Positions 6,331 through 64,000 of a stretch of 64,000 nucleotides of DNA are shown in pieces. The DNA is taken from positions 496,001-560,000 of the forward strand of contig NZ_JACBAZ010000003.1 of NCBI RefSeq assembly GCF_013391475.1, in the 5' to 3' direction. The first letter of the stretch is position 1. Each line of letters begins with the position of its first letter. The notes beneath the pieces were generated by a model. The model ran no database searches. It was given only the letters and a program-made list of their open reading frames with translations, and was not told the origin of the DNA. Origin of the DNA: Oceaniferula marina (GTDB lineage Bacteria; Verrucomicrobiota; Verrucomicrobiia; Verrucomicrobiales; Akkermansiaceae). Both the position numbers and the translations under genes were made by a program.

Positions 6331-6377
6331 AATCCGAGTTAGGTTGTTTGAAATTGGTTGATGTTGGGTGAAGTGAT

Positions 6378-6413
6378 AGGGCGATTGCGAGGCATGCGCC
6401 AAGCAATCGCCCT
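6378..6413 (-). promoter_or_regulatory. Intercistronic hairpin between GH112 and permease genes
   Basis: AGGGCGATTGC (6378-6388) and GCAATCGCCCT (6403-6413) form a perfect 11-base stem with a 14-base loop in the gap between the phosphorylase stop and the permease start. No T run follows on the minus strand, so it is more likely an RNA-stability or processing element, or a protein-binding palindrome, than a plain terminator. Confidence 0.6.
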
Positions 6414-6429
6414 AGAAGTCATGCATGAT

Positions 6430-8613
6430 CTAGGCGCTAACCCAAGTCATTTCGTACGGCTTGAGCTCAACGCTGTGTTGCACACCTTTGGCATCGCTAA
6501 AGGTGGTGGTTTGAGGCTCATCCGTATGGTTGGCTACAGCAATTTTTCCCGTTGCTGCGTAATAAGCGCAGTCGGTGTTCGGGTTGTCGCAGATCAAGGT
6601 ATCAAGCGAAGTCTCCTTGCCGGCTGCCCAAGCAATGGCGCGCAGCAGCAAGCGGGAGTTCTCGAGATCGTAAGGAAGCTCCGAGAGATACACGCCGCGG
6701 CCATTGGCGAACGCATTCGCGGCCAGCTGGACGTGTCCTTTTTCCGATGTCGAGATGACGTCGGCGTCGCTGGACGCCGGGTAAACAAAACTCATGCCAG
6801 CGCCGAGCTGGATGTCCTCAGAAATGCCATCGGTGATGAAGTGGCTGTCCGGGGTGTTTGCCTTACGGGCGGCGACCATGCAGCTTTGCCCGGTTTCCTT
6901 CTGCACGCCAAGCACGTCTTCGAGCTGAAGGTAGCGTCCGTTGTGCTGGTGGCCAGCCGGGTCGGTGATGCCGAGGAACCCGCCACCGTTGGCGACCCAC
7001 TCACGAACCGGTCCGATGATGGCCGGGTCGGCCCACTCACGTCCACCGGTCCAGGCAGTGTCGCCGGTGCCGTCGTTGATGATCACATCGATATCGGCAG
7101 GGATGCCGTTCTCGCGGATTTCATCGAAACTGATAAAGGTAACATCGACCGGCAGGCCGGAAAGGCACTCCAGCATGTTTGAGCCGGCAATGACGGTGAC
7201 GTCCGGGCGCTTGTCGAGGAACTTCTGGTGCGGATTGGTGTAATTGATCCATGCTCGCAGGTTACCCCAGCAGTTGAGCACGGCAACTTTCAGCGGCAGG
7301 CGCTGGGAAAGCTCCCCATCGGTACCGTCGCGGATTTCGCGAAATTCGTTACAGATGGTCTCAACGCTTTGCACAAAGTCCGGGAATTTAGCGGCCAGCG
7401 AGAGGTAACCGCCGTAACCGATGCGATCGACAGGCATCCGCAGCATCGCGCGGCGAATCTTCGCCCAGTTGGAAATGGATTCTCCGGCTGGGTCCCCCCC
7501 TTCGCGGAAGACATCCGGGAAGAAATACGGGTAGAGGCGGATTTCCTTTTCCAGCTTACCCGGGGTGTCGGAAAGGCGGCGCAAAGCGACGCCATCCTCG
7601 ACCGCACCAATGTTGATATCGATGCCGATCTCTTGATAAGATGGGTGATAGAACTCGGCACCAATCCAGTGGTCTCCCCAGAAAATGGCGGCTTTTTTAC
7701 CGGCGGCATGCACTTTTTTCACCAGTTCTTTACCGAATTTGACGGTGAAGTCCTGAATGAAAGTCATCCAGTCGCGGTAGGCCTTGGTCGGCACACGGTA
7801 GGTCGCATTGTAATACCCGTCATCGACAAAGTCCTCAGCAGTGAGTGCGTAGCCGAAGCGTTTCTCGAAGTCCTCGAGCGCTGGGATACTGATGGTGTCC
7901 TGATAACCGGTCCAGTCACGGAACTTGTCCACCGCATTCTCATCGGAGTCGACACAGAAGTGGTAAGCGAAGGTCGTCAGGCGGACGACGTCGGTGTCCT
8001 TGTGGCTGTCGATCCAACTGTCGAAGAATCCCATCAGGTGGTCCCAGGTTTCCTGATGATAGGGGTCCACGCTGATCACCTTCGGGGTCGTCCAGTTGTT
8101 TTGGATGTGGTTGTACATCGATGTCGTGTCCCAGGTCAGATAGACAAGGACATTGACCGTGTATGAGTGCCATGGGGCGATGCCGGTCACGGTAACGATA
8201 CCGCTTTCGTTATCCACGGACCACTTTTCCGCGGGCACGATCTCACCGGTGGTGCGGTCGATGACCTGCCACCAGCGTTTTGGATCGTTATCGAAATCAA
8301 GTTCGTATTTATCGCGGCAGAGGGTCGCCAGCGGGTCGATCTCGACGCTGTCCGACGTGGCTGTAACCGCATCCGAGATCAGGAATTTCTGGTGCAGCGA
8401 CTTTGGGTTGGCACGCGGATACTCTTGGTCGGCACGGACGATGCAGACCGTGGAATAAATCTGATAACCCATCTCCAGAATTTGAGGAGAAAGGGCGGTG
8501 CCGTCACTGTCGCGGATATAGTCCGCGCCCCAGCGATCAAACATTTCGACGACGGTGTCTTCTGCACCGGTTTCTGCGGGCAAGGTGACCCGGCCTGTGG
8601 ATGGATTCGACAT
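6430..8613 (-). CDS. lnpA: 1,3-beta-galactosyl-N-acetylhexosamine phosphorylase (GH112)
   Basis: Cytoplasmic GH112 phosphorylase, which uses phosphate to split galacto-N-biose or lacto-N-biose into galactose 1-phosphate and the N-acetylhexosamine. Some family members act on Gal-beta-1,4-rhamnose instead. The 727 residues match the usual family length, and there is no signal peptide. The TIM-barrel part carries FWGDHWIG, whose Asp314 lines up by position with the known catalytic Asp313 of the Bifidobacterium enzyme. A Rossmann-like middle (KVAVLNCWGNLRAW) and a C-terminal beta domain follow. Its neighbours, a secreted enzyme that releases Gal-beta-1,3-GalNAc and a sugar permease, favour galacto-N-biose as the substrate. 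Exact specificity cannot be read from the sequence. Confidence 0.88.
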   Translation of the reverse strand: MSNPSTGRVTLPAETGAEDTVVEMFDRWGADYIRDSDGTALSPQILEMGYQIYSTVCIVRADQEYPRANPKSLHQKFLISDAVTATSDSVEIDPLATLCRDKYELDFDNDPKRWWQVIDRTTGEIVPAEKWSVDNESGIVTVTGIAPWHSYTVNVLVYLTWDTTSMYNHIQNNWTTPKVISVDPYHQETWDHLMGFFDSWIDSHKDTDVVRLTTFAYHFCVDSDENAVDKFRDWTGYQDTISIPALEDFEKRFGYALTAEDFVDDGYYNATYRVPTKAYRDWMTFIQDFTVKFGKELVKKVHAAGKKAAIFWGDHWIGAEFYHPSYQEIGIDINIGAVEDGVALRRLSDTPGKLEKEIRLYPYFFPDVFREGGDPAGESISNWAKIRRAMLRMPVDRIGYGGYLSLAAKFPDFVQSVETICNEFREIRDGTDGELSQRLPLKVAVLNCWGNLRAWINYTNPHQKFLDKRPDVTVIAGSNMLECLSGLPVDVTFISFDEIRENGIPADIDVIINDGTGDTAWTGGREWADPAIIGPVREWVANGGGFLGITDPAGHQHNGRYLQLEDVLGVQKETGQSCMVAARKANTPDSHFITDGISEDIQLGAGMSFVYPASSDADVISTSEKGHVQLAANAFANGRGVYLSELPYDLENSRLLLRAIAWAAGKETSLDTLICDNPNTDCAYYAATGKIAVANHTDEPQTTTFSDAKGVQHSVELKPYEMTWVSA

Positions 8614-8720: not shown

Positions 8721-11700
8721 TTACTTCAGCGTTTTGACGCCAAGGTTATCGAGAACGAAGTCGACATCCTTGTGCTTGGATTCACTCTTGATCCGGTTCA
8801 CACCAATCCAGAGGTCCTGTCCTTCTTTTGGCTCAAGCGTCACGGTGAATCGCTTGGTCTCATGCGCTTCATTGAGAGGAAGCGTTTTCAGCTCCTTGCT
8901 TTCACCTTTTTCATCTGCTCCGATGACAAACTCATACTCGCCGCTATAGACGTTCTGATAGTCAAAGGAAACTTCATACTTCTTACCAGACTCGAAGCGC
9001 AGGGACTGAGGAATCGTGCGGTAAAGCAGGACAGTGTCGCCCTTTTTACCTGAGGAGCGCTCACGGTGGCACTTCAGTGACCAGTTGCCACCGAGGGTGT
9101 CATCGATCTTCTGGTCGTTCCACCCCTTGTTGGTGTAAGGAGCATTGAGCTCGGACAGGTGGGTGCGAGGGTCTTCCACGCCACCGGCAGGGCCTTTGAC
9201 GAATGGGAACCATCCTTCATCGATGTTTTCGAAGTTCTGATAGTAGTCGTATCCTTCTTTTTCGCTGCGAACGGTTTTCTGGACCCGGATGTTATCGAAC
9301 ATGACGCGGGAGTCACCAGCATCGACTTTCAGGGCGAGAGTGACCTTATCCTTTCCGGCCGGCACATCGAAGACGGTGCGCATGATCTGGGTGCGGGTGC
9401 GGTTCCAGTGGCTGTTTTTCACCGTGTTTTCGAGAGGCGAGCTATCCGTCCACGTGGTGGACGCGTCTCCACCTTCAGGAGTGGCGGTCAGCGATGCCTT
9501 ACGGCCTTTTTTGTCTACTTCGACCCATACGGAGGCACTGTAGGTGCCAGGCTCGAGAGCGATGGTCTGGGAAACGGTGGCTGGCTTTTTACTCGCTTTG
9601 TAAACCAGAGCGGTGCGCACGTGGTCGTCTGTTTCGACGGAAACGACATCTTTTTCAGCTTCAACCTTCCAGTTGGCGAGTGAGCTGTCCCAGAATCCAG
9701 GGTCCTTGATCGGCTGGCCTTCACCCCAGTTGGGTTTTGGCAGAGCAGGAGCCTCAGTCTGATAAACGACGTAAGGAGTCTTGGCCTTGGCTTCGATGGT
9801 GATCTTACCGTCGGCGACCGGAAGGTCGGCTACGAGCGTGCGGCCAGTGTGGCTGAGTTCGTAGAGTTTAACCGTCTTGGTCTTCCAGCTGGCTGGAATT
9901 TCCCATGTGGACTTGCCTCCTTCAGGGCTCCAGTGATAGAGCTTGGTCTCCTTGGTCGGATCCCATGGAAGCAGGTAGGTACCACCATCGAGCACTTTGA
10001 GTCCCTTTTTGAAGATCTGACGTGGCTTGTCACCATCTTTGGTGATTTTGACATCGCCGCTGAGCTGAACCTCGTCTTCTGTCCACTTCAGGATTTGGTG
10101 GTGCTGGAGGTACTTGCTAGGTAGGGCAGCTGAGTAGAGCTTTCCGAGGAACTGATTAAAGTCGGTACGTCCCTGCCAGGTTTCAAAGTCGCCTAGCTCG
10201 GCGTGGCCAATCAGTGGGTGGCGGAGGTAGGTATCTTTCTCGTGGTTACGGATAAAGCGAATGATATGGCTATTGATTCCCCGGCGCGTATTCGGCCCGT
10301 AAGTCACGTCTGTGGACCAGTGAGACCAAGTGGAGGCATGCTCAAGCATGGATGGAAACTCTGTGGTAATCCCTATATCATTACGATCTAAAATACGTGC
10401 CATCTCCTGTGCGAGCCAGCCATCACCCCAGTAGACATCCATGTAGATAAAGTCGAGACCTGGAAGCTCTTTCTTCATATCAGAAATACGCTTTTCGAAA
10501 GCGCCGGAGGTAATATCCCAGCGATGATTCATGATGTAGGAAAAGTCGATCCAGTCCCAACCCCGGCGGTCCTTAAAGACCATGGCGTCCTCAAACGTTT
10601 TGGCTTCGGGATATGCCTCTTGGCAGTTGATATGCACACCAATCTCAGCACCCCACTTTGCGGATGTATCGATGAGGAAGTTGAGCTCATCGACGCCGCC
10701 CTGGCGGATACCGACGTTGCCAGCGTAATCCGGATGGGCGCTGTCGTGTCCCTCGGACTGGTAGCCCTTGAGGACGACAAACTGGCCGAGGCCGTCGGTG
10801 GCGTAGTGAACACGCTTGACGTTGTCGAGTGTGCGGAGGAAGGGTTCGCCGGCATGGCTTCCGAAGTTGAAGGCGATGCGCTGGGCGACACGCTTAGGAG
10901 TCAGTCCCTTTTTATCGTGCACATCCATGATATCGCGGAAAGCGATCGCGCCATCCTGCCAGTCAATTTGCTGGTCTCCATTGCGGTCTCCTGTGATGAT
11001 CACTTTGGTCCAGAGTTCATCGGTTGTGACCTTAGAGTTCAGCGCACGATAGGTCCACTGCCCCGAGCTCAAGCTTGCGTTGCCACGATTCTCTTTATTG
11101 TCGACCGCTATACGCACACGGCCGTTTCCTAATTTAATAGCTTTATCGACAGGTCCTTTATAGTCCTTGTCAATCGCTGCGTCGTTAGCATTGGGTGCTG
11201 CGTGGCGATCATCTTTATCGATATCATAGGCAGAGTTGTTCACCAAAGTAGCCGCAAGCTTATTGGTATTCACAATAGCATAAGCGGCTGAGCGTTTCTC
11301 CTCCTTGACTTGAGGTGTTACTTTTAAAAATGTATCCTTCTTCTTTGATTGATCTGTATGAATAATAGCAGATGATACTTCCGCCCCTGCTTGCTTACTA
11401 TGAACAGAAATCATTCCGTGGTTAGGAATTTCTACAGAAGTAAGTTTGAAACCTTTGCCCTCTTTGATGTTTTTGAGCTTAAAGGTGAGGATGGAACCAT
11501 CCAGCGAGATTTGCGCATCCATGCTGAGGTTATCAGCATCAGGGAAGGTTAGCTTGTAAGTTGCGAGTTTGTCTGAGCTGGCCCCCTTAACCAAATTAAC
11601 CTTGGCGGTGTAGAGTTTCTCATTCAAGAGAAACTGAGTGAGTTTCTCGGATTGTCCGTGAATCTGAGCACCTGTTTTTAAATGTGAGTAAGAGATGACC

Positions 11701-11855
11701 TGAGGGAAGTTCTGGTCGAGCAGGACTTCAAGATCCGCAGATTTGAGCGTAATGGGTTCTCCGGCGGCGGCGTGGGTGATGGTCCCCAAGAGGCTGCTTG
11801 CGGCAAGCAGACCGATGGAGAGCACATGTTGCTTTTTAGGCTTGTTCTTGTTCAT
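8721..11855 (-). CDS. Secreted endo-alpha-N-acetylgalactosaminidase (GH101)
   Basis: GH101 enzymes release the core-1 disaccharide Gal-beta-1,3-GalNAc from Ser/Thr of mucin-type glycoproteins. The 1044-residue product has a signal peptide (cleavage near HAAAG, residue 31) and a beta-rich domain typical of the family up to about 310. A TIM barrel follows, with FIYMDVYWGDGW, where Asp473 is the expected nucleophile, and ITTEFPSMLEHASTW, which holds the acid/base Glu (499 or 505). C-terminal beta and carbohydrate-binding-like domains follow. An EF-hand-like loop (DRNGDQQIDWQDG, 290-302) may bind calcium. It is the first gene of the minus-strand module, diverging from an AraC-type regulator. Family assignment is from the barrel motifs and context. 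Confidence 0.85.
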   Translation of the reverse strand: MNKNKPKKQHVLSIGLLAASSLLGTITHAAAGEPITLKSADLEVLLDQNFPQVISYSHLKTGAQIHGQSEKLTQFLLNEKLYTAKVNLVKGASSDKLATYKLTFPDADNLSMDAQISLDGSILTFKLKNIKEGKGFKLTSVEIPNHGMISVHSKQAGAEVSSAIIHTDQSKKKDTFLKVTPQVKEEKRSAAYAIVNTNKLAATLVNNSAYDIDKDDRHAAPNANDAAIDKDYKGPVDKAIKLGNGRVRIAVDNKENRGNASLSSGQWTYRALNSKVTTDELWTKVIITGDRNGDQQIDWQDGAIAFRDIMDVHDKKGLTPKRVAQRIAFNFGSHAGEPFLRTLDNVKRVHYATDGLGQFVVLKGYQSEGHDSAHPDYAGNVGIRQGGVDELNFLIDTSAKWGAEIGVHINCQEAYPEAKTFEDAMVFKDRRGWDWIDFSYIMNHRWDITSGAFEKRISDMKKELPGLDFIYMDVYWGDGWLAQEMARILDRNDIGITTEFPSMLEHASTWSHWSTDVTYGPNTRRGINSHIIRFIRNHEKDTYLRHPLIGHAELGDFETWQGRTDFNQFLGKLYSAALPSKYLQHHQILKWTEDEVQLSGDVKITKDGDKPRQIFKKGLKVLDGGTYLLPWDPTKETKLYHWSPEGGKSTWEIPASWKTKTVKLYELSHTGRTLVADLPVADGKITIEAKAKTPYVVYQTEAPALPKPNWGEGQPIKDPGFWDSSLANWKVEAEKDVVSVETDDHVRTALVYKASKKPATVSQTIALEPGTYSASVWVEVDKKGRKASLTATPEGGDASTTWTDSSPLENTVKNSHWNRTRTQIMRTVFDVPAGKDKVTLALKVDAGDSRVMFDNIRVQKTVRSEKEGYDYYQNFENIDEGWFPFVKGPAGGVEDPRTHLSELNAPYTNKGWNDQKIDDTLGGNWSLKCHRERSSGKKGDTVLLYRTIPQSLRFESGKKYEVSFDYQNVYSGEYEFVIGADEKGESKELKTLPLNEAHETKRFTVTLEPKEGQDLWIGVNRIKSESKHKDVDFVLDNLGVKTLK

Positions 11856-12046
11856 AAGATTTGTGTGTGTTGGTTAAGGTTAAGATAAATGAAATTTTGT
11901 GATCCATCATGGATGGTTGTGAAGATCATAGGTGCGGCATGGTATTCCGCATTCGAAAGTTAAATTTAACTCACTAATAACTGAAATTATGAGTTCTATA
12001 CAGATTAAAAGATTGATGTGTTTCGATCATTTTGTGATATTTGGGC
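11856..12046. promoter_or_regulatory. Divergent promoter region of GH101 and AraC-type regulator
   Basis: This 191-base AT-rich gap separates two divergent start codons and must hold both promoters. It contains a perfect 12-base palindrome GTTAAATTTAAC at 11959-11970, a plausible operator. Autoregulation and control of the GH101 gene by the neighbouring AraC-type protein are inferred from the arrangement. Confidence 0.5.
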
Positions 12047-12808
12047 ATGAACCGTGATCCCGAAGGAGCTGTAGGCTTTCCCCGCATACTTCTTTCTCAA
12101 AGAGAAAGTTACGAAGGCTCAGGGTATTGGCGCGACAATTCTGGAGATCCTCCGAACAGTGCATTAGTGATTCAGCACACCGAGTCGGGAACCGCCTGGT
12201 TAAAGACAAAAAACGGCTCCTACGAGGTGCCTGCAGGTTATGCCATGCTCTTTGTCCACGGCGAGGACTCCAGCTATGGAGCAAGAAGCTCCAAGTATCA
12301 GCTGAAGTTTGTCTCCATGGCCTACACCCGTAGTATTTGTGATTTGTTCAACAACGTTCGGCGTGAGTTCGGCTCTGTGGTTCAGATGCAGAACGGGGGT
12401 CAGGCCGAATGCCTGATGGGAAGCCTCATGGAGGCCTTTATGGCAAGGGAAGACCCCCTCTTGCAGGCCGAGGAAATCTTCCGTTTTTTGATCGCCGTCT
12501 ACCGTGAACAACTCAATCGCCACCAGGGAGACGACCCGGTGGCCTATGGACGCTTTCTCTTGGAAAGCCAGTATCGCTCACCCCGAAACATGTCTGAATG
12601 GGCAGAGGTCATCGGGATCACACGGGAACATTTCTCCCGTGAATTTCAACGGCGCTATGGCGAATCACCAGCCGTGTTTCTTCGTAGGCAGCGATTGCAC
12701 CACGCCCAGGTCCTGATGAAAACCAGTCCGTATTCCGTCGAGCGGATCGCCAGCCTGAGTGGATTTAGCAATGTTCAGTCGCTGCGCCGTGCCCTGCGGC
12801 AGGGTTAG
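12047..12808 (+). CDS. AraC family transcriptional regulator
   Basis: The first 130 residues look like a cupin-type ligand-binding domain (GTAWLKTKNGSYEVPAGYAML). The last 90 hold the two helix-turn-helix units of the AraC family: MSEWAEVIGITREHFSREF, then RRYGESPAVFLRRQRLHHA and the signature VERIASLSGFSNVQSLRRA. I chose the ATG at 12047; a TTG six bases upstream is the alternative. It diverges from the GH101 gene and probably activates the galacto-N-biose module when the disaccharide or a product is present. The ligand is inference. Its C-terminus ends right after the second helix-turn-helix, slightly shorter than usual. Confidence 0.88.
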   Translation: MNRDPEGAVGFPRILLSQRESYEGSGYWRDNSGDPPNSALVIQHTESGTAWLKTKNGSYEVPAGYAMLFVHGEDSSYGARSSKYQLKFVSMAYTRSICDLFNNVRREFGSVVQMQNGGQAECLMGSLMEAFMAREDPLLQAEEIFRFLIAVYREQLNRHQGDDPVAYGRFLLESQYRSPRNMSEWAEVIGITREHFSREFQRRYGESPAVFLRRQRLHHAQVLMKTSPYSVERIASLSGFSNVQSLRRALRQG

Positions 12809-12831
12809 GGAGTAATTTGATGACTGGCAGG

Positions 12832-13599
12832 CTAGACTCTGCGACGTCGAGCCAGTCCGCTAAATCCGGCCAAGGCCAGCAACAAGGAGGCCGAGGGTTC
12901 CGGGACTTGGCTGGTGGTCACCGTGATGTTATCGAAGGCGATATCCTCGTCGCCAGCATTAAGGTTGGAGATGGTGATGCGCAAATCCAGAATCGATCCT
13001 GTTCCAAGGGCGGAATCAATATCCGCGCTGAATTCGGTGAAAGTGTCCGTGATTTCAGTCCCGTCACCAATTCCGTCGAAATTGGTATCGACAGATGGAG
13101 CAGAATTAATCGCTCCGCCCGTAGATCTGATAGCAAAGAGATCCACAAAACCGCCCCCGTCGATCTGTGCCTGCACAACGAGGGATGAGTCGCCGTCCCA
13201 GTCTTCGTTTGGAAAATCATCATCTTCGGCAAACAAGCCTGAGAACGTGATCCCGGTCGCACCAGCAACCTGGACACCCGTCCATTCCAGCTGAATGAGG
13301 TCGATGTTTCCGGATGACGTGCTGTCAGTATCCTCAGCTCCGTAGAAGCCGCCCCCCTGCTGGTTGTTGTAGTTTAATTCTGTTCCGACGGTATCTGCAA
13401 AAGAAATGATCCCGAAGTAATTGCGGTCAGGAAACAGCTCGGAGGTATTATCTGGTATCAGCGTCGAGTCTCCCGCATTGGTTTGCACATAGTTGACGAT
13501 ACTGTCTTCAAAATCCTCGAACAGGACAAGGGTTGCCGGGAGGCTGGCTGTTGATGCGAAGAATAATCCGGCCAGTAGATTCAGAGCTTTGTTTTTCAT
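12832..13599 (-). CDS. PEP-CTERM protein
   Basis: A 255-residue exported protein with a signal peptide (cleavage near SLPAT) and a single beta-sandwich-like domain rich in Asp, Gly and Thr (LFEDFEDSI, later LDLRITISNLNAGDEDIAFDNI). This fits a jelly-roll or carbohydrate-binding-like fold. It ends in QVPEPSASL, a hydrophobic helix and ARRRRV, a PEP-CTERM sorting tag. It faces the AraC-type gene tail to tail. The target of the domain is unknown. Confidence 0.85.
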   Translation of the reverse strand: MKNKALNLLAGLFFASTASLPATLVLFEDFEDSIVNYVQTNAGDSTLIPDNTSELFPDRNYFGIISFADTVGTELNYNNQQGGGFYGAEDTDSTSSGNIDLIQLEWTGVQVAGATGITFSGLFAEDDDFPNEDWDGDSSLVVQAQIDGGGFVDLFAIRSTGGAINSAPSVDTNFDGIGDGTEITDTFTEFSADIDSALGTGSILDLRITISNLNAGDEDIAFDNITVTTSQVPEPSASLLLALAGFSGLARRRRV

Positions 13600-52844: not shown

Positions 52845-53396
52845 ATGCATTCCCGATCTATCCACCACTCCGACAAGCTTGTCAATAAGTCAATCGATCA
52901 CAAATCGTCACACAAGCGAACATCTTTTTTCTAGACACTCACCTTCATTACATTAAGTTCGGCGAGTCCTCACCAAACAAACTAACATTTTCTATCATGT
53001 TCTATGTGAACCCTGTATTACAGGACCAAGGACAACCTAACTAAAACCACCAACCAAACCCCACTCGCAAACAAAACATCGAACTGCTTATTTTTTCAAA
53101 CCCCACACCGCCTGGCATAGGCACTGTGCGCTAGTGTACTGAACCCCCGGTCATACTAAACCAACACCAATCGCATCCCATCGCCGCAAATCGCAGCCAA
53201 TCGCTTTCGATAAACTAGCGATAAACCAACGATAGGCGCATGGTCGATTGTTGACGCTCAGACTACTGAACTGGCGCAAACTCAACAGGAACATTCCCTG
53301 CATGGCACCACTGTGCCCGGTGAAAGAGGAACAATTGACCTCCTCTCAAAGCAAATCCAAACCCATCAACCAACTAAACCATTAATTCAAGAATCC
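52845..53396. promoter_or_regulatory. Divergent spacer with 10-bp phased TCGC repeats
   Basis: This 552-base gene-free gap separates the DUF6916-like gene from the first tail-collar gene. At 53171, 53181, 53191 and 53201 the unit TCGC recurs exactly every 10 bases, roughly one helical turn, and GCGAT units lie just after (53218-53240). This may be a cluster of regulator-binding sites on one face of the DNA. No gene or terminator is seen. Confidence 0.35.
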
Positions 53397-53939
53397 ATGT
53401 CTGAACCCCTCATTGCTGAAATTAAAATGTTTGGAGGCAACTTCGCCCCGCGCGGCTGGGCTTTCTGCAACGGTCAAACCCTTGCCATTTCATCCAACTC
53501 CGCTTTATTCTCCATCCTCGGCACCATCTACGGAGGTGACGGCCGCACCACCTTCGCCCTACCCGACCTTCGCGGCCGCACCCCCATCTCATCGGGTCGT
53601 GGCCCGGGGCTAGCCAACTACAACCTTGGCCAACGAGGGGGCAGCGAACAGGTTGTTTTAAACAGCACTCAAATCCCCTCACATCACCATACAGTCAACA
53701 ACCTGAAGGTAGGTGTCAGCACCCAGGCAGCAGATACCGACGACCCCTCAGGAGCCGTCTTCGGAGTCGGCAATGAAGATGCCTTTTTTGAAGGAGCCGC
53801 CAACGCCACAATGGATGACACCTCCCTTACCGGCAACACGGACTTTACAGGTGGAAACCAATCCCACACCAACATGCAACCTTACCTCGCCACCAACTAC
53901 ATCATCGCCTTGCTAGGAATCTACCCATCAAGAAGTTAG
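53397..53939 (+). CDS. Tail-collar domain protein (MdpB-like), copy 1
   Basis: MSEPLIAEIKMFGGNFAPRG and WAFCNGQTLAIS begin a phage tail-collar fold as in the microcystin-dependent protein family. ALFSILGTIYGGDGRTTFALP, then DLRGRTPI, is the classic core, and IPSHHHTV is a His-rich motif typical of the family. The C-terminal half (NLKVGVSTQAADTDDPSG) is beta-rich, ending NMQPYLATNYIIALLGIYPSRS. Bacterial members are not part of a phage; their role is unclear. The ATG at 53397 is chosen over an upstream frame extension. Copy 2 at 54786 is a close paralogue. Confidence 0.87.
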   Translation: MSEPLIAEIKMFGGNFAPRGWAFCNGQTLAISSNSALFSILGTIYGGDGRTTFALPDLRGRTPISSGRGPGLANYNLGQRGGSEQVVLNSTQIPSHHHTVNNLKVGVSTQAADTDDPSGAVFGVGNEDAFFEGAANATMDDTSLTGNTDFTGGNQSHTNMQPYLATNYIIALLGIYPSRS

Positions 53940-54785: not shown

Positions 54786-55337
54786 ATGGCTGATCCTTTT
54801 CTCGCAGAAATTAAAATGTTCGGGGGCAATTTTGCACCTCGCGGCTGGGCCTTTTGCAATGGCCAATTGCTCGCCATCAACAACTACCAAGCGCTCTTCT
54901 CCCTGCTGGGCACCACCTACGGGGGCGACGGACGCACTTCGTTTGGTCTGCCCGACCTCCGTGGACGAGCCGCTATTCACTCTGGAAACGCCAGCGCGGG
55001 CCCGGGACTGACCCCTCGCCCATTGGGACAAAAATCCGGGGTTGAACAGGTCACCCTGACCGCCAACCAAATTCCATCACACCATCACACTGCCTCGAAT
55101 CTGAAGGTAGGAGTCAGCACTCAGGCTGCTGACACCGATGATCCGTCCGGCACTGTCTTCGGCGTGGGTAACGAAGATGCTTTTTTCGAAGGAGCAGCCA
55201 ACGCCAACATGGGCGACAGCTCAATCACCGGCACCACGGACAACACCGGCGGCTCCCAGCCACACACCAATATGCAACCCTACCTTGCGGTCAATTACAT
55301 CATCGCCCTTCAAGGCACATTCCCATCACGTAGTTAA
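54786..55337 (+). CDS. Tail-collar domain protein (MdpB-like), copy 2
   Basis: A 183-residue paralogue of the gene at 53397; most of the sequence is alike, from ADPFLAEIKMFGGNFAPRG to YIIALQGTFPSRS. It carries the LLGTTYGGDGRTSFGLPDLR core and an IPSHHHTA motif. It differs mainly around SGNASAGPGLTPRPLGQKSG. No signal peptide, so export or assembly would need another route. Followed directly by the Tat-signal gene. Confidence 0.87.
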   Translation: MADPFLAEIKMFGGNFAPRGWAFCNGQLLAINNYQALFSLLGTTYGGDGRTSFGLPDLRGRAAIHSGNASAGPGLTPRPLGQKSGVEQVTLTANQIPSHHHTASNLKVGVSTQAADTDDPSGTVFGVGNEDAFFEGAANANMGDSSITGTTDNTGGSQPHTNMQPYLAVNYIIALQGTFPSRS

Positions 55338-56621: not shown

Positions 56622-57374
56622 GTGAAGGAAATCTGGGAACAAGCGATACTCTCCTACAACCTGCCACTCACCGTTGCGCTGGGTCTGGTCATCGTTTTCT
56701 GGATTCTGGCCGTCATCGGAACCATCGATTTCGAGTCACTCGACTTCGATTTTGATTTCGACGCCGATGTGGATGCAGACCTCGATGCCGATCTGGATAC
56801 GGATGTCACCCCCGGTTCTGGAGGTTTCATGATGACCATCCTCAAATTTGTCAATGCCACCGATGTGCCGGTCATGATGGTGCTGAGTTTTCTCACCTTG
56901 TTCATGTGGACTTTCGCCATCATCTCCAATGCCGCCTTCAACCCGAATCACTCCTGGCTGATTGCCTCTGGACTGATCGTCGGCAATTTCTTCCTCAGCT
57001 GCCTGATGGTCAAAATCACCACCCAGCCTTTCCGTCCGTTTTTTAATGCGTTCAAAAAAGGGGAAAACGATGACGAACCGGTGATTGGCCGGGTCGGCAC
57101 CGTCAAATCCCGGGTCATCGACACCAAATACGGTCAGGTCGAAATCCCACGGGATAACGGAGCCCCCGCCATCGTCAACTGCCGCATGGCTGACGATCAC
57201 GAGTCCATGGTTCGGGGCGACCAGGTTCTGGTCTTCAGTAAGGATAAGGAGAAAAACTTATTCCTCGTCCGCAGCGCCACCCCCTCTCAGGAAAAACAAG
57301 AATCAACAGAAAAACAAACAACCCAGCATCAAACAACTACATCACAACCATCCCAACTAGAAAACCATGAATAA
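56622..57374 (+). CDS. OB-fold membrane protein, YqiJ-like
   Basis: Starts at a GTG. TM1 (about 12-33) is followed by an Asp-rich loop with repeated FDFDADVDADLDADLDTDV, then TM2-3 (about 75-130). A cytosolic OB-fold of the NfeD/YqiJ type (GRVGTVKSRVIDTKYGQVEI) and a Gln/Thr-rich tail end the protein. E. coli YqiJ works beside the flotillin YqiK, and here the flotillin gene begins before this one ends (57367-57374). The Asp repeats are unusual for the family and could bind calcium. Confidence 0.82.
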   Translation: MKEIWEQAILSYNLPLTVALGLVIVFWILAVIGTIDFESLDFDFDFDADVDADLDADLDTDVTPGSGGFMMTILKFVNATDVPVMMVLSFLTLFMWTFAIISNAAFNPNHSWLIASGLIVGNFFLSCLMVKITTQPFRPFFNAFKKGENDDEPVIGRVGTVKSRVIDTKYGQVEIPRDNGAPAIVNCRMADDHESMVRGDQVLVFSKDKEKNLFLVRSATPSQEKQESTEKQTTQHQTTTSQPSQLENHE

Positions 57375-59439
57375 TATAACACTAATCGCAGGACTCTGGG
57401 ACATCATCAAAGGTCTCGGTGTTGGAGTGCCCATCGTCTTCGGCGTTATTGCCATCGCCGTCATTTTCGCTTTCGTCAATTGTTTCCGTAAAGTGGAAAA
57501 GGGAACCGCCTTGATCCGCACCGGACTAGGTGAAACCAAGGTTACCTTCACCGGCATGATGGTCTACCCCGTCGTCCACCGCGCCGAACTCATGGACATC
57601 TCACTGAAACGCATCGAAATCGACCGGACCGGTAAAAACGGACTGATCTGTAAGGATAACATGCGGGCCGATATCAAGGTTGCCTTCTTTGTCCGGGTCA
57701 ACAACGTGCGCGAAGAAGTCGTCCGCGTCGCCGAATCGATTGGCTGCGACCGTGCATCGTCCGAACAGGAAATCCGCGTCCTCTTCGATGCCAAGTTCTC
57801 TGAGGCCCTGAAAACTGTCGGTAAGAAATTCGATTTCATCCAGCTCTACGAAGAGCGGGACACCTTCCGTGATGAAATCCTGAAATGTATTGGCACCGAC
57901 CTCAACGGCTTCGTGCTCGATGACGCCGCCATTGACTACCTTGAACAAACACCCATCGAGGCCCTCGACCCCGATAACATCCTCGATGCCGAAGGTATCA
58001 AAAAGATTCACGACCTCACCGCCGCCCAGGCGAAACTCTCCAACAACATTCAACGAGACAAGGAGAAGGTGATCAAACAACAAGACGTCGAGGCACGCGA
58101 GGCAATCCTCGAACTCGAACGCCAACTCGCTGAAACCGAAGCCAAACAACAGCGGGAAGTCGATACCGTCCAGGCACGCGAACAGGCCGAAGCCCTGAAA
58201 GTCCAGGAAGAAGAACGCCAAAAGGCCGAGCAGGCACGCATCGCCGCCGAAGAGGAAATCCAAATTTCCGAGGAAAACAAACAACGCCAGGTGCTGGTTG
58301 CCCTTCGGAACAAGGAGCGAACCGACGCCGTCGAACTCGAACGCGTCAAACGCGATCAGGAACTTGAAGCGATCGAACGCGCCCGCGTCACCGAACTCAA
58401 GGACATCGAGAAAGATAAAGCCGTCGAGGTGCAGAGGAAGGAAATCCAGGATGTCATCAAAGAGCGTGTCGCCGTGGAAAAAACCGTGGTGATCGAACAA
58501 GAGAAAATCAAAGACACCGAAGCCTTTGCCGGTGCCGACCGGACCAAGCAGGTGAAAGTCACCCTCGCCGAAGCCGAAGCCCAGGAAGTTTTGATCGAGC
58601 AGATCAAAAAAGCCGAAGCCCAGAAAGAGGCTGCCCAGCTGCGCGCCGATCAGGAGCTCTACGAGCGGGTCAAAGCCGCCGAAGCCGCCAAACAAGCCGC
58701 CGAACTCCACGCCGAGGAGGTCGTGGTTGCCGCCGAAGCCGAACAAACCGCCGCCGAGAAACAAGCACTCGCCAAGAAGATGCTCGCCGAAGCCACCGCC
58801 AAGGAGGCCGCCGCCGTCGGATTGGGTGAAGCCGAGGTCATGCTCGCCGTGGCCGATGCCACCGAGAAACAAGGAACCGCCGAAGCCACCGTCGACCGCC
58901 TCAAGTTCGAGGCCGAGGCCGATGGTATCCACAAGAAGGCCGATGCCATGAAACTCTTCGAAGAAGCCGGTCAGGAACACGAAGAATTCAAACTGGAACT
59001 CGAGAAGGAAAAAGCTGTGGAGCTCGCCGCGATCGACGTCCAACGCCAGATTGCCGAACAGCAGGCAGTCGTGGTGGGAGAAGCCCTCAAGTCCGCCAAC
59101 ATCGACATCGTCGGTGGCGAGACTCAGTTCTTCGACCGCATCACCAATGCCATCACCACCGGTAAGGCCGTCGACCGCACCGTCGACAACTCCCGGGTGC
59201 TGGGCGATGTCAAGGAGACCTTCTTCAACGGCGACCCGGAGTATTACAAGTCCCAGATCCAGTCGTGGCTCGACCAGTTTGGTGTCGAAACCGAGGACAT
59301 TAAAAACCTCTCTGTCGGCGCTCTGCTCGGCAGCTTGGTCCCAATGGCCGAAGGTGAAAAGCGCACCCAGCTGCTCTCATTCCTCAACGCCGCCGAACGT
59401 TTCAACATCAAAGACCAACCCGCCAAAAACTTCCTCTAA
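57367..59439 (+). CDS. Flotillin-like SPFH domain protein (YqiK-like)
   Basis: One TM helix near residues 15-36, then a SPFH/Band 7 domain (about 37-200: KVEKGTALIRTGLGETKVTF, later NMRADIKVAFFVRVNNVREEV). A long Ala/Glu/Lys-rich coiled coil follows (210-590), with a C-terminal helical tail (EYYKSQIQSWLDQFGVE). It scaffolds membrane microdomains. It overlaps the OB-fold gene and is followed by the GxxExxY module and the DUF3686 ATPase gene, all in the same direction. The coil makes the opposite strand look open; that frame is a shadow. Confidence 0.9.
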   Translation: MNNITLIAGLWDIIKGLGVGVPIVFGVIAIAVIFAFVNCFRKVEKGTALIRTGLGETKVTFTGMMVYPVVHRAELMDISLKRIEIDRTGKNGLICKDNMRADIKVAFFVRVNNVREEVVRVAESIGCDRASSEQEIRVLFDAKFSEALKTVGKKFDFIQLYEERDTFRDEILKCIGTDLNGFVLDDAAIDYLEQTPIEALDPDNILDAEGIKKIHDLTAAQAKLSNNIQRDKEKVIKQQDVEAREAILELERQLAETEAKQQREVDTVQAREQAEALKVQEEERQKAEQARIAAEEEIQISEENKQRQVLVALRNKERTDAVELERVKRDQELEAIERARVTELKDIEKDKAVEVQRKEIQDVIKERVAVEKTVVIEQEKIKDTEAFAGADRTKQVKVTLAEAEAQEVLIEQIKKAEAQKEAAQLRADQELYERVKAAEAAKQAAELHAEEVVVAAEAEQTAAEKQALAKKMLAEATAKEAAAVGLGEAEVMLAVADATEKQGTAEATVDRLKFEAEADGIHKKADAMKLFEEAGQEHEEFKLELEKEKAVELAAIDVQRQIAEQQAVVVGEALKSANIDIVGGETQFFDRITNAITTGKAVDRTVDNSRVLGDVKETFFNGDPEYYKSQIQSWLDQFGVETEDIKNLSVGALLGSLVPMAEGEKRTQLLSFLNAAERFNIKDQPAKNFL

Positions 59440-59455
59440 CCTGGATAGGATTCGA

Positions 59456-59482
59456 CCACGGAACACACCGAATACACGGAAA
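59456..59482 (+). repeat. Inverted repeat upstream of the GxxExxY gene
   Basis: This 27-base sequence, starting CCACGGAACACACCG, is the inverted form (one mismatch) of the TTTCCGTGTATTCAGTGTG unit that recurs at 59921, 60055 and 60176 downstream of the GxxExxY gene. The gene is thus bracketed by inverted repeats. Confidence 0.8.
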
Positions 59483-59490
59483 TTATTGCC

Positions 59491-59865
59491 ATGAGCTTGC
59501 TGTTTGAAAAGGAAAGCTATGCAATCCGTGGGGCGTGTTTCGAGGTCTACCGGGACAAAGGATGTGGATTCCTAGAGGATGTCTACCAAGAGTGCTTGGA
59601 AATTGAATTTGAGCATCAAAACATTCCCTATGTAGCCCAACCAACTCTTGAGCTGGGCTACAGGGGAAAAACTCTCAGACAAACTTACAAGCCCGATTTC
59701 ATCTGCTACGGAGAAATCATCCTAGAAATCAAAGCTGCAAAAAACATTGGCGACTCACACCGAGCCCAACTCCACAACTACCTCAAAGCCACCCGGAAAC
59801 GTCTCGGTTTCCTAGTCAACTTTAGCCATCACCCCAAAATAGAAATCGAACGCATCATTCTGTAA
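59491..59865 (+). CDS. GxxExxY family protein (PD-(D/E)XK-like)
   Basis: A 124-residue protein with the family-defining GFLEDVYQECL, then YKPDFICYGEIILEIKAAK, in which Asp, Glu and Lys fit a PD-(D/E)XK nuclease core, and HRAQLHNYLKATRKRLGFLVNF at the end. Function is not established; a nuclease role is inferred from the core residues. It sits within an inverted repeat/tandem repeat array in the middle of the flotillin-ATPase unit and looks inserted there. Confidence 0.88.
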   Translation: MSLLFEKESYAIRGACFEVYRDKGCGFLEDVYQECLEIEFEHQNIPYVAQPTLELGYRGKTLRQTYKPDFICYGEIILEIKAAKNIGDSHRAQLHNYLKATRKRLGFLVNFSHHPKIEIERIIL

Positions 59866-59920
59866 AACTTCCGTATATTCTGAGCATCCCATCATTCTCA
59901 ATGACCCACGCAACCATAGC

Positions 59921-60209
59921 ACTTTCCGTGTATTCAGTGTGTTCCGTGGTTAACATTGAACACTCACTCTCAACACCCGCGATTCGAAACATCCGTCCGA
60001 TTCAAGGTTTCAAATAATCATCCCAAGCCATCATCCCAAGCCATCAACCCCTGCACTTTCCGTGTATTCAGTGTGTTCCGTGGTTAACATTGAACACTCA
60101 CTCTCAACAACCACGATTCGAAACATCCACCCGATTCAAGGTTTCAAATAATCATCCCAAGCCATCAACCCCTGCACTTTCCGTGTATTCAGTGTGTTCC
60201 GTGGTTAAC
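59921..60209 (+). repeat. Tandem direct repeats downstream of the GxxExxY gene
   Basis: Two full units (59921-60054, 134 bases, including a 13-base internal duplication; 60055-60175, 121 bases) and a partial third (60176-60209). Each opens with ACTTTCCGTGTATTCAGTGT and continues with TTCCGTGGTTAAC, a region with GATTCGAAACATCC and GATTCAAGGTTTC, and a TCATCCCAAGCC end. The unit is too long and irregular for CRISPR. The third copy ends 6 bases before the ATPase start codon. Confidence 0.85.
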
Positions 60210-60214
60210 TAAAA

Positions 60215-63200
60215 ATGTCAGATCAACAGCAACAGCTAGAAAGTGGTGCCTACGAGGTCATCCGTGGGCGCATGGAAAAACATGGCCTGGACCTGCGTGA
60301 ACGGATCGAAAAACTCAACACCGACCGGAAGCAGATCTTTGGTGCAATCGACCCCGCCCTCATCGCCACCGAGCGCATCAGCACCGAGCACAACTGCGTG
60401 CCGCGCGATATGGTATCGATCGGGGCCAATCGATTCCTGTTCGGCTACAACATCCAGTTCGGGCTGAAAAAAACCACCCACCCGTCCGACGTTTTCGACA
60501 TCTACGAATACGACCCGGAATCCCATGCTTTCTCCAAGCTCGATGAAGTCGCCATCTTTGGTTCCGAGTTCGCCGAAGACTTCCAGTACCTCTACAAGTA
60601 CTACAAACAAACGACCTTTGTAAAATTCATGCTCATCGGCCCGCACCTCTACATGGGCATGCGGATCGGCAAAGCGATCGACGACATCAAAACCTTCAAG
60701 TGGCTCATCAATGGTGATGGCTCACTCGAATACCTCGGCAACCGCTTCGACCACGAGTATCTTTTCCCACCCCAGCAGGAATTCGAATGGATCCGCGCCC
60801 ACCGCGATATGCAACGCGGCGGCGAACACCCACACATTTCGATCGACGACCGGATCTTTGTCGAAACCGTCGGTGGCGACCTCACCATCAAGGTCGAGGA
60901 TAATACCTCAGACGGCAAAGGCATCTACGAAGAAGAAGTCTCCGACCTCGACCAAACACTCGACGATGCCGAGATCTTCTACGCCAGCGTCGGTCCCCTG
61001 ATCCTACTTAAAATCCTCCCCTACCGCGAGGAAGACTACCGCTACCTCGTCTATAACGAAAAAACCCAGGATGTCCACCGACTCGATGCCATTGGCCACT
61101 CCTGCGTCCTGCTCCCCGACGAGCACGGACTGATCTTTGCCAACGGCTACCTTCAACTCAGCGGCGAAATCAAAACCTTCGACCACGGTATCCTCGACAT
61201 GCGTTTTGAAAAACGCATTGTCAGCGCCAACGGCGAAGACACCCTCTTTGTGTTCTACAACCGAGCCAGCGGAGATTACGTTCTACTCTCCTACAACTTG
61301 ATCGAGCGCTCGGTGGAAAACCCGATCATCTGCAGCGGTTACTCACTCTTCCCCGACGGCAAACTACTCTACTTCCGCTCCGAGGGACAGCGCTCCGGCA
61401 ATGGCGAGGCCAAGCCCCCCGAACCTCAAAAACATCATGTCATCCAGGCATGGCAAACCCCCTACCTCAACGACGAGTTCTCGGCCCGAATCACCGCCGA
61501 AAACGATTCCTTTCTCTTCAAAATTGGCAACCCGGACATCGTCCGCTGTATGGCCGAGTGCCGCGAGGTTCTCAATTTGTTAGGAAAAGAGGATTCCTAT
61601 GCCGGACTCTACCTCGATCTGGTCAAAAAGACCGGCGACATCAACGACGCCTATTTCTGGGTCAGTAAAAACGAAGCCTACAAGCTCTCCGATCCACTAC
61701 GGGAAATCAATGCCGCCGCCAACTCCGCCATCGATGAGTTCGACAAGGTGGTCCGACTCCGCCAATCGACCGGCGAACAGACCACGGCCACCCAGGAATC
61801 CGTTCGCACCCTGATCCGTCAGGTCGAACACTCCCCGCCCGATGACATCCAGGGATACGTGCACCAGCTCACCAGCCTACGCACCCTGCGTGGAGATATC
61901 ATCGGCCTGCGCGACCTCCGCTACGTCGACCTCGATCTTGTTGCATCCTTAGAACAAGACGTTGTCACCGCCACTGAGACGGTTTCACAAAAAACCGTCA
62001 ATTTCCTGCTCACGCCGGAAGCTCTCGATTCCTACCGGTCCGCTGTCGATGAACAAAAAGCATCGATTGCAAAATTGAAAAAGGTCACCGAGGCCGACGA
62101 CACCGCTGAGTCACTCGACAACGCCGGCGCCGAACTCGAAATGCTGATCGATGTGGTCAGCAATCTAAAAATTGAAGATGCCACCCAGACAACCGCGATC
62201 ATCGAGAGCATCTCCAGTATTTACTCGACCCTCAATGCCGTTCGCGCCGAACTGAAAAACAAACGTCAATCGCTGGCGAAGTCGGAGGGCACGGCCCAGT
62301 TTGGTGCCCAGATGAAACTGCTCGGTCAGGCAGTAGTCAATTACCTCGACCTCTGCGATCACCCGGACAAGTGCGAAGAGTATCTGACCAAAGTCATGGT
62401 GCAGATCGAGGAACTCGAAGGAAAATTTGCCGAGTTCGATGAGTATGCCGACGAACTCGCCGCCAAACGCGAGGAGGTCTACGACGCCTTTGAAACCCGC
62501 AAGACCACCTTGCTGGAAAAACGTAACAAGCGGGCTGCCAATCTGGTCAAATCCGCCGAGCGGGTGCTCTCCGGGATCAAACATCGCGCCGAAGGCTTCA
62601 AGGAGATCAATGAGATCAACGGCTACTTCGCCGGCGACCTGATGATATCCAAAGTCCGCGACATCATCGAGCAACTTGAAGAACTCGGCGATACCGTCAA
62701 AGCCGCCGACATCCAGACCCAGCTGAAAACGCTGAAAGAAGATGCCGTCCGACAGCTCAAGGACCGCAAGGAGCTCTACGTCGATGGCAAAAACATCATC
62801 CAATTCGGCAAACACAAATTCAACGTCAACACCCAGGAGCTGCAACTCTCAATCGTCCCCCGCGACAAGGATATGTGTTTCCACCTCGCTGGCACCGATT
62901 TCTTTGAGCCTATCACCGAACCCGCCTTCCTCGAAACCAGCGCTGTCTGGGAGCAAGAGGTTATCTCGGAAAACAAACAGGTCTACCGCGCCGAATACCT
63001 CGCTTACCAGTTTCTTCGTGACGGTGACCTTCGGTCAGCCAGTCAATCGCTTGAAACGGAGCACTTGAAACTTGAAACTCTGAGCCGCTTCGCCGCCGAG
63101 CGTTACACTGAGGCCTACACCAAAGGCGTTCACGACCAGGACGCTTTCAAAATCCTCGAAGCCCTGCTCCCCATTCATAAAACGATTGGCCTCCTAAGAT

Positions 63201-64000
63201 TCTCACCAGCCGTCCGAGCCGCGGCCATGCTCTTCTGGCACACTTGGGAGTCACCTGAAAAATCAATTCTGGAATCCCAGCTTCATTCCATCAGCGAGAT
63301 GCGGAAAAGCGGCTTCGCCTCCAACACCGACTCTTCGAGCTACCTGCCCCAGCTCACCGAAGCCCTCTCGGAGAGTAAACTCAATACTCTCAACTCCAAC
63401 CTCCAACTTCAAATCGCGAAGTATCTGTTCGCCCAACTTTCCTCTGGCTCCCCCTTTGTGGTTTCCCCCGAGGCGAACAACATCATCCAGAAGTTCAACC
63501 AAACGCTGACCGCCAAACGTGCCAAGGACGCCTTCGAGACATCCACTGCCAATCTCACTGGCCAGGCCAAATACCAGACGATCCTCGACTGGATCATCTC
63601 CTCCCGCGAGCTCAGCCAGCCCGGAGAGCCAGAACCTCATTCAACACTCAGCATTCTACATTCCCAATTCCGCGAAGCGGCGGCCCATCTCCTGATGGGG
63701 CAACCAGCGAAGCGGGATGTCCACCACGTCGAGGTCGCCACTGAAATCAACGGCCTCCTGGGCTCCCACACGGTCATTGATGAAGGCAATTATCAGCTCC
63801 ACTACAATGCCTTTATGGATAAACTCGATGCCTTCGAGTCCACGGATGTCCCCACCTTCCAGGCCTATCAAAGAACCAAACAAGAACTCACCGAGTCCAA
63901 ACGCGACGATATGCGCCTGCACGAGTTTCAGGCCCGCGTCATGTCCGCCTTCGTGCGCAATAAGTTGTTGAATGATGTCTATCTGCCCATGATCGGCGAC
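60215..64000 (+). CDS. DUF3686 giant ATPase ('DNA repair ATPase'), 3' part outside the window
   Basis: The ATG at 60215 opens 1262 codons with no stop before the edge. The N-terminal 450 residues match DUF3686: VGPLILLKILPYREEDYRYLV, then EHGLIFANGYLQLSGEIKTFD, with a WINGDGSLEYLGNRFDHEY region before. Long helical and coiled-coil regions follow (roughly 500-1260). The AAA ATPase domain that defines the family lies further on and cannot be seen. Family members are called DNA repair ATPases, but the role is not well tested. It follows flotillin and OB-fold genes on the same strand. Codons near 63030 and 63640-63720 look like repeat-derived sequence. Confidence 0.75.
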   Translation, partial: MSDQQQQLESGAYEVIRGRMEKHGLDLRERIEKLNTDRKQIFGAIDPALIATERISTEHNCVPRDMVSIGANRFLFGYNIQFGLKKTTHPSDVFDIYEYDPESHAFSKLDEVAIFGSEFAEDFQYLYKYYKQTTFVKFMLIGPHLYMGMRIGKAIDDIKTFKWLINGDGSLEYLGNRFDHEYLFPPQQEFEWIRAHRDMQRGGEHPHISIDDRIFVETVGGDLTIKVEDNTSDGKGIYEEEVSDLDQTLDDAEIFYASVGPLILLKILPYREEDYRYLVYNEKTQDVHRLDAIGHSCVLLPDEHGLIFANGYLQLSGEIKTFDHGILDMRFEKRIVSANGEDTLFVFYNRASGDYVLLSYNLIERSVENPIICSGYSLFPDGKLLYFRSEGQRSGNGEAKPPEPQKHHVIQAWQTPYLNDEFSARITAENDSFLFKIGNPDIVRCMAECREVLNLLGKEDSYAGLYLDLVKKTGDINDAYFWVSKNEAYKLSDPLREINAAANSAIDEFDKVVRLRQSTGEQTTATQESVRTLIRQVEHSPPDDIQGYVHQLTSLRTLRGDIIGLRDLRYVDLDLVASLEQDVVTATETVSQKTVNFLLTPEALDSYRSAVDEQKASIAKLKKVTEADDTAESLDNAGAELEMLIDVVSNLKIEDATQTTAIIESISSIYSTLNAVRAELKNKRQSLAKSEGTAQFGAQMKLLGQAVVNYLDLCDHPDKCEEYLTKVMVQIEELEGKFAEFDEYADELAAKREEVYDAFETRKTTLLEKRNKRAANLVKSAERVLSGIKHRAEGFKEINEINGYFAGDLMISKVRDIIEQLEELGDTVKAADIQTQLKTLKEDAVRQLKDRKELYVDGKNIIQFGKHKFNVNTQELQLSIVPRDKDMCFHLAGTDFFEPITEPAFLETSAVWEQEVISENKQVYRAEYLAYQFLRDGDLRSASQSLETEHLKLETLSRFAAERYTEAYTKGVHDQDAFKILEALLPIHKTIGLLRFSPAVRAAAMLFWHTWESPEKSILESQLHSISEMRKSGFASNTDSSSYLPQLTEALSESKLNTLNSNLQLQIAKYLFAQLSSGSPFVVSPEANNIIQKFNQTLTAKRAKDAFETSTANLTGQAKYQTILDWIISSRELSQPGEPEPHSTLSILHSQFREAAAHLLMGQPAKRDVHHVEVATEINGLLGSHTVIDEGNYQLHYNAFMDKLDAFESTDVPTFQAYQRTKQELTESKRDDMRLHEFQARVMSAFVRNKLLNDVYLPMIGD

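Follow-up and report, generated by a model that had tools for sequence, protein, structure and literature searches.

The window, by which we mean the whole 64,000-nucleotide stretch of DNA analysed here, belongs to contig C3 of a genome of 5.07 Mb. Near its end, three genes encoding a YqiJ-like protein, a flotillin-like protein and a DUF3686 protein follow each other on the same strand in the ORF listing, and the first two overlap by 8 bases (57367-57374), just as the initial annotation had described. Its gene list was incomplete, however: a fourth same-strand gene, GxxExxY/PDDEXK_3 at 59491-59865, sits in the 775 bases between the flotillin and ATPase genes, and inverted repeats lie on both sides of it. 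The features are as follows:

56622-57374, + strand: YqiJ/YuaF (NfeD2)-type membrane protein, 250 aa (YqiJ_N, 1.7e-5)
57367-59439, + strand: flotillin-like SPFH protein, 690 aa (Band_7, 1.3e-9 on residues 1-228)
59454-59481, - strand: left member of the inverted repeats around the GxxExxY gene (matches the pattern with 1 mismatch)
59491-59865, + strand: GxxExxY/PDDEXK_3 nuclease-like protein, 124 aa (Pfam 3.9e-38, TIGR04256 9.9e-39)
59924-59951, + strand: right inverted repeat, copy 1 (pattern match)
60058-60085, + strand: right inverted repeat, copy 2, lying in tandemly repeated sequence (pattern match)
60179-60206, + strand: right inverted repeat, copy 3, just 5′ of the ATPase start (pattern match)
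60215-64000, + strand: DUF3686 AAA+ protein, first 1262 of 1708 aa (ORF and Pfam)
60290-61657, + strand: DUF3686 domain, residues 26-481, a predicted beta-propeller with helical ends (Pfam and model)

The window does cut the unit off, as had been noted, and the sequence beyond position 64000 completes the ATPase (L002:6215-11341), which continues for about 1.34 kb beyond the window. The label of a very large ATPase fits the full 1708-residue protein and its AAA domain, but this domain, together with its P-loop, lies beyond the window end and was unreadable there. The nearest named relatives of the ATPase come from Akkermansiaceae metagenome bins, with 76-77% identity over the best segment.

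Where does the unit end? The lipoprotein-like, DUF2130 and K+-channel proteins encoded downstream have no phmmer relatives in the other fetched loci, whose downstream stretches vary in length, and we therefore set the boundary at the ATPase. A larger fixed operon was rejected on the same ground. The unit comprises YqiJ, flotillin and the ATPase, and it is not compact. No + strand terminator was found in the flotillin-ATPase gap, in a scan that ran near its shuffle background (20 terminators found, against a mean of 13.5 and an s.d. of 3.5; 1 promoter against 4.2). Among the surrounding genes, a TrkA-type K+ channel is encoded three genes downstream of the ATPase (L002:15071-16798) and has no relative in the other loci; near a Streptomyces unit there is a gene for an NAD-binding potassium-transport protein (L275:1984-3948). 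Upstream in the window, two similar ORFs that we take to be tail-collar-like (53313-53939 and 54786-55337) flank a 244-aa ORF with what is presumably a PEP-CTERM-like end.

The initial annotation had supposed the combination to be undescribed. Operons of this kind are, in fact, reported by Ravi et al. 2024 (PMC11237479) within the PSP network, including a short form without PspA. We compared the encoded proteins with the components of those operons. The YqiJ-like protein matches YqiJ_N above the Pfam cut-off, and hydropathy places hydrophobic stretches at residues 7-42, 76-106 and 111-132; it thus resembles the three-transmembrane YqiJ/YuaF-type component, with the segment count taken from hydropathy. 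Its C-terminal region may form an OB-like domain. The OB-fold label given earlier to this protein therefore remains tentative, since NfeD matches appear in 3 of 40 relatives and the best PDB profile match, YuaF (2k14), has an E-value of 0.021. The second protein begins with a hydrophobic segment (residues 6-44), followed by an SPFH domain and a long charged helical tail, in line with the SPFH/band-7 flotillin with an N-terminal transmembrane segment in the published operons. Its identification as a flotillin holds, with the Band_7/SPFH match falling on the N-terminal 228 residues. The whole 690-residue sequence gave no Pfam match, likewise all seven whole-length relatives scanned (7/7), and a sequence search against the PDB returned no match for it.

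The DUF3686 protein is built from the predicted DUF3686 beta-propeller, a coiled coil and a C-terminal AAA+ domain, the layout of the AAA+ protein in the published operons: Pfam names DUF3686 (3e-179), DUF7902 (5.9e-27) and AAA (1.7e-8, residues 1283-1358), and the modelled N-terminal part is beta-rich and then long-helical. In the AlphaFold2 model of residues 1-560, made with 49 relatives (pLDDT 88.8), many short strands at residues 48-414 precede long helices. For this part, Foldseek ranked propeller proteins first, among them Sec12 and DCAF1 (E 9e-8 to 1e-6), and their query TM-scores were low (0.23-0.26). The model of residues 930-1708 is weaker (pLDDT 79.2, pTM 0.56), and its fold matches are AAA+ proteins, with RuvB first (1.6e-4), then NorQ (2.6e-4) and, lower, Vps4 (1.1e-3); the query-normalised TM-scores were at most 0.26 in both searches. 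Region 1251-1450 is the best conserved among 50 relatives. P1288-T1295 and D1355-D1356 are kept in at least 97% of them, and we read residues 1288-1295 and 1355-1356 as putative Walker A- and Walker B-like (P-loop) motifs. A sequence search of the PDB matched the P-loop only, and the Pfam scan found no protease domain in the protein.

In order to examine the gene neighbourhood, we took all loci from the 27 of 288 sampled Verrucomicrobiota genomes in which DUF3686 is present, in wider stretches, and a further 29 loci from named contigs of Verrucomicrobiota, Bacteroidota and Gammaproteobacteria, found with the ATPase. A locus was informative when it had at least 3 kb of upstream sequence or a visible flotillin; L029, L059, L064, L067, L072 and L082, with too little upstream sequence, were left out. 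A same-strand flotillin lies upstream of DUF3686 in 22 of the 26 informative phylum loci and in 23 of the 24 informative named contigs, the reverse of a lack of adjacency and more than chance would give, and the proposal of one unit is thereby borne out. YqiJ precedes flotillin in 22 phylum and 21 named loci; in the remaining two, the contig end truncates the locus. The two genes overlap in 9 of these 43 loci. The distance from flotillin to the ATPase varies between -17 and 3586 bases across the surveyed loci. The gene order YqiJ, flotillin, DUF3686-AAA+ is conserved, and the genes belong together.

The loci without an upstream flotillin number 4 of 26 in the phylum and 1 of 24 among the named contigs (L050, L051, L053, L054 and L060). 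Five phylum genomes lack the neighbour; a flotillin relative occurs on another contig in G086, G284, G015 and G129, and G191 has no flotillin match at all. A YqiJ profile matches 48 of the 288 phylum genomes: 25 match strongly (E <= 6.2e-28), all of them among the 27 DUF3686 genomes, and 23 weakly (E no better than 6.3e-13), none of them among these; the comparison is partly circular because the profile was built from DUF3686 neighbours. PF12458 matched 0 of 14 control genomes.

The same arrangement is found on plasmids. In twelve plasmid-collection records the ATPase has a relative that covers at least 80% of its length. Of seven regions retrieved from them, six are annotated and one, from Vibrio, is unannotated; the flotillin profile matches directly upstream in all six annotated regions (Hymenobacter, Pseudomonas pQBR103, two Streptomyces and two Deinococcus). 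A YqiJ profile match precedes flotillin in five of the six; the exception is Streptomyces globosus, where the annotation shows no gene at that position. On the Hymenobacter plasmid the order is Tir chaperone, PspA, DUF1449, flotillin-like and “DNA repair ATPase”. Altogether, the flotillin partner of DUF3686 recurs in five phyla. As a separate observation, the ATPase gene is followed by one for a rhomboid-family protease in 8 of the 10 loci from Gammaproteobacteria (L066, L067, L068, L069, L072, L073, L079 and L080), and such a gene also lies near PspA on pQBR103 (L274); Ravi et al. 2024 (PMC11237479) do not use the word “rhomboid” in their main text.

A further neighbour, besides flotillin and YqiJ, is PspA. 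With a profile built from four neighbour genes, PspA was found upstream in 19 of the 43 YqiJ-bearing loci. Pfam names PspA_IM30 in all four scanned neighbours, together with CesT_Tir_1 in L065 and DUF2170 in L069, and PLD is also among the Pfam-named neighbours in other lineages. In the window, no PspA occurs among the ORFs around the unit, and the CesT/Tir-PspA dyad of the full published operon is thus missing. The best PspA candidate of the genome, on contig C2, scores 33 to 33.5 bits, just below the cut-off of 33.9. Might the flotillin pair and the ATPase then serve only housekeeping, in membrane fluidity or membrane-protein folding, independently of PspA? The remaining 24 of the 43 YqiJ-bearing loci, in which the fetched upstream stretches (some of them short) hold no PspA, speak for this, as do the abbreviated operons that are common in print (PMC11237479) and the ability of flotillin alone to stabilise unfolded clients, Staphylococcus aureus flotillin being reported to hold unfolded proteins (PMC11222466). 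The PspA linkage, however, recurs in Bacteroidota, Gammaproteobacteria and other Verrucomicrobiota, and we regard the purely housekeeping role as rather unlikely.

A defence system had also been suggested. In an anti-phage unit of this sort, the membrane platform would sense infection and the ATPase would be the effector or sensor. The patchy spread (27 of 288 phylum genomes) and the 12 plasmid-collection records are what such a system might show, and the P-loop region of the ATPase has weak PADLOC matches to IetA (8.6e-4) and mad8 (1.3e-3). Yet these matches are partial and near the E cut-off, and flotillin and YqiJ have none in the same scan of eight proteins, in which nothing matched a catalogued set of defence proteins with confidence. 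Weak partial matches also came up for the GxxExxY protein (PDC-M36A, 9e-4; Cas4, 1.9e-3) and, downstream of the unit, for the DUF2130 protein (LmuB, 3.2e-4). Moreover, the linked genes are the stress genes PspA and CesT/Tir, the loci inspected hold no recognised defence genes, and no relative of the ATPase was found in phage records. The defence suggestion is accordingly not upheld, and an anti-phage function is improbable.

The DNA-repair label, carried over by the initial annotation, goes back to the Pfam description line of DUF3686 and found no independent support in this analysis. Under that label, a repair ATPase would merely adjoin the flotillin pair. Several plasmid records use the same product name, RuvB tops the C-terminal fold matches, and RuvB models weakly match the P-loop. 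But the likeness to RuvB is limited to the P-loop part and is common to NorQ, CDC48, Rix7 and others, and the persistent partner, in five phyla, is a membrane scaffold; we consider a repair function very improbable.

The membrane-stress role, also put forward initially, is the best reading of the conserved flotillin, YqiJ and PspA neighbours. We propose, with a probability of about 0.5, that the unit is a constitutive envelope-maintenance or envelope-stress unit of the PSP-linked type described by Ravi et al. It is supported by the upstream flotillin (22/26 and 23/24), YqiJ, the PspA linkage and the domains of the ATPase. Against it we count the missing PspA in the operon, the flotillin-less loci, the weak C-terminal model led by RuvB, and the null result for Escherichia coli YqiK, whose deletion caused no growth defect under the stresses tried, according to unpublished data quoted in PMC2636767. 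No experimental study of any unit member was found in the literature searched.

How might the three proteins work together? Flotillin would form an oligomeric scaffold that YqiJ anchors to the inner membrane. Through its propeller and coiled coil, the ATPase could then dock on this scaffold or on a client, and its C-terminal AAA+ ring would spend ATP on pulling apart the polymers or misfolded membrane clients held there, much as Vps4 acts on ESCRT-III or FtsH inside HflK/C, minus the protease domain. In Bacillus subtilis, SPFH proteins tie PspA to the membrane (PMC8581546); in the present genome, PspA would act from another locus. The “DNA-repair ATPase” label of DUF3686, widespread in databases, is in our opinion misleading, as the conserved partners suggest membrane-scaffold motors. 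The unit also offers a testable bacterial case of an AAA+ motor acting with SPFH scaffolds and the ESCRT-III-like PspA.

The GxxExxY gene is best read as a later insertion between flotillin and the ATPase and is probably not part of the functional unit. Its left repeat is inverse to the three right copies, with 0.00 such matches expected in shuffles of the window, and the genome holds 14 repeat matches within 3 mismatches, against 0 for the reversed control. Two inverted repeat pairs in the genome are too close together to hold the gene. One of them immediately follows the stop codon of the ATPase gene, about 1.35-1.45 kb beyond the window end (L002:11355-11452). The family lies between flotillin and the ATPase in 7 of the 45 loci with an upstream flotillin (the window's own, L002, and L035, L036, L040, L057, L070 and L075), with repeats that are different but similarly built, and L055 lacks the gene and retains one repeat-like end. 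GxxExxY genes occur in 135 of 240 Verrucomicrobiota genomes, in up to 12 copies, and in 101 of 141 genomes of the order.

Other genes are seen in the same gap elsewhere. L033 carries an S23 (23S rRNA IVP) gene (11389-11829); L031 a 148-aa ORF (7426-7869) that by eye looks like a REP-type (Y1) transposase; L030 a 517-aa ORF (11346-12896) that we presume to be of the AAA/PDDEXK_9 kind; and L049 four ORFs (4596-7924).

We then applied one uniform test for inverted-repeat flanks to several gene families, using the best-scoring matches returned rather than a random draw and a score threshold of 30 that was set after a first look. Such flanks were found at 32 of 62 GxxExxY loci (14/32 in the phylum and 18/30 in the order), or 29 of 59 without L086, L257 and L264, the DUF3686-operon copies that prompted the idea. 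S23 genes (PF05635) had them at 13 of 27 loci (L118-L147), with internally periodic repeats of other types. PIN genes had them at 0 of 28 (0 of 27 under a slightly different length filter), and Y1_Tnp, though intended as the positive control, at only 4 of 23. Offset positions scored in 2/188 (GxxExxY, phylum), 2/179 (GxxExxY, order), 0/160 (S23), 0/126 (Y1_Tnp) and 0/164 (PIN) cases; the repeat of L117 is a palindrome and scores at offsets too. The loci skipped were 1/33, 0/30, 3/30, 7/30 and 2/30, in the same order. A CCAC-type motif on both sides was present at 9 of 32 GxxExxY, 0 of 27 S23 and 0 of 27 PIN loci.

Tentatively, at slightly less than even odds, the GxxExxY gene may encode the protein of a small mobile element whose class is undescribed, bounded by internally periodic inverted repeats of the design AACCACGGAA-nACACGGAA that also spread by themselves as short hairpins. 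It would be a counterpart of RAYT/REPIN on a different enzyme, and the S23 four-helix-bundle genes, with repeat types of their own, would be a parallel. The repeat strings tried were not found in the literature searched. As in REP/RAYT systems (see PMC8266576 and PMC3116915), a small gene lies between inverted repeats that are also found gene-free, but the GxxExxY family is of the PD-(D/E)XK type rather than an HuH Y1 transposase. Should GxxExxY and S23 genes drive repeat-bounded elements, two very common “hypothetical” families would gain a role. The repeat-bounded GxxExxY gene is the newest part of this analysis and is worth a separate look.

Finally, we compared the unit itself with known systems. 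The SPFH2-NfeD2 pairs YqiK/YqiJ and YuaG/YuaF were defined by Hinderhofer et al. 2009 (PMC2636767), and the YqiJ-YqiK genes of E. coli and YuaF-YuaG of B. subtilis likewise form overlapping or adjacent pairs of a small membrane protein gene and an SPFH gene; the cited passages, however, describe a DUF3686 ATPase partner for neither. FtsH-HflK/C similarly combines a membrane SPFH assembly with an AAA+ motor in stress (PMC13220708), but the DUF3686 protein has a propeller and a coiled coil and no protease domain, so that this is a likeness only. The operons of Ravi et al. share the three components, the ATPase architecture and, in other lineages, the PspA, CesT/Tir and PLD neighbours; here, in contrast, the operon has no PspA and contains an inserted GxxExxY gene. 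The name DUF3686 was not found in the literature searched, and from the architecture and the identical neighbours we infer that their AAA+ protein is DUF3686. Their main text makes no mention of Verrucomicrobia (PMC11237479). The operon type is thus already predicted in print, and the lineage is new to the main text of that prediction.
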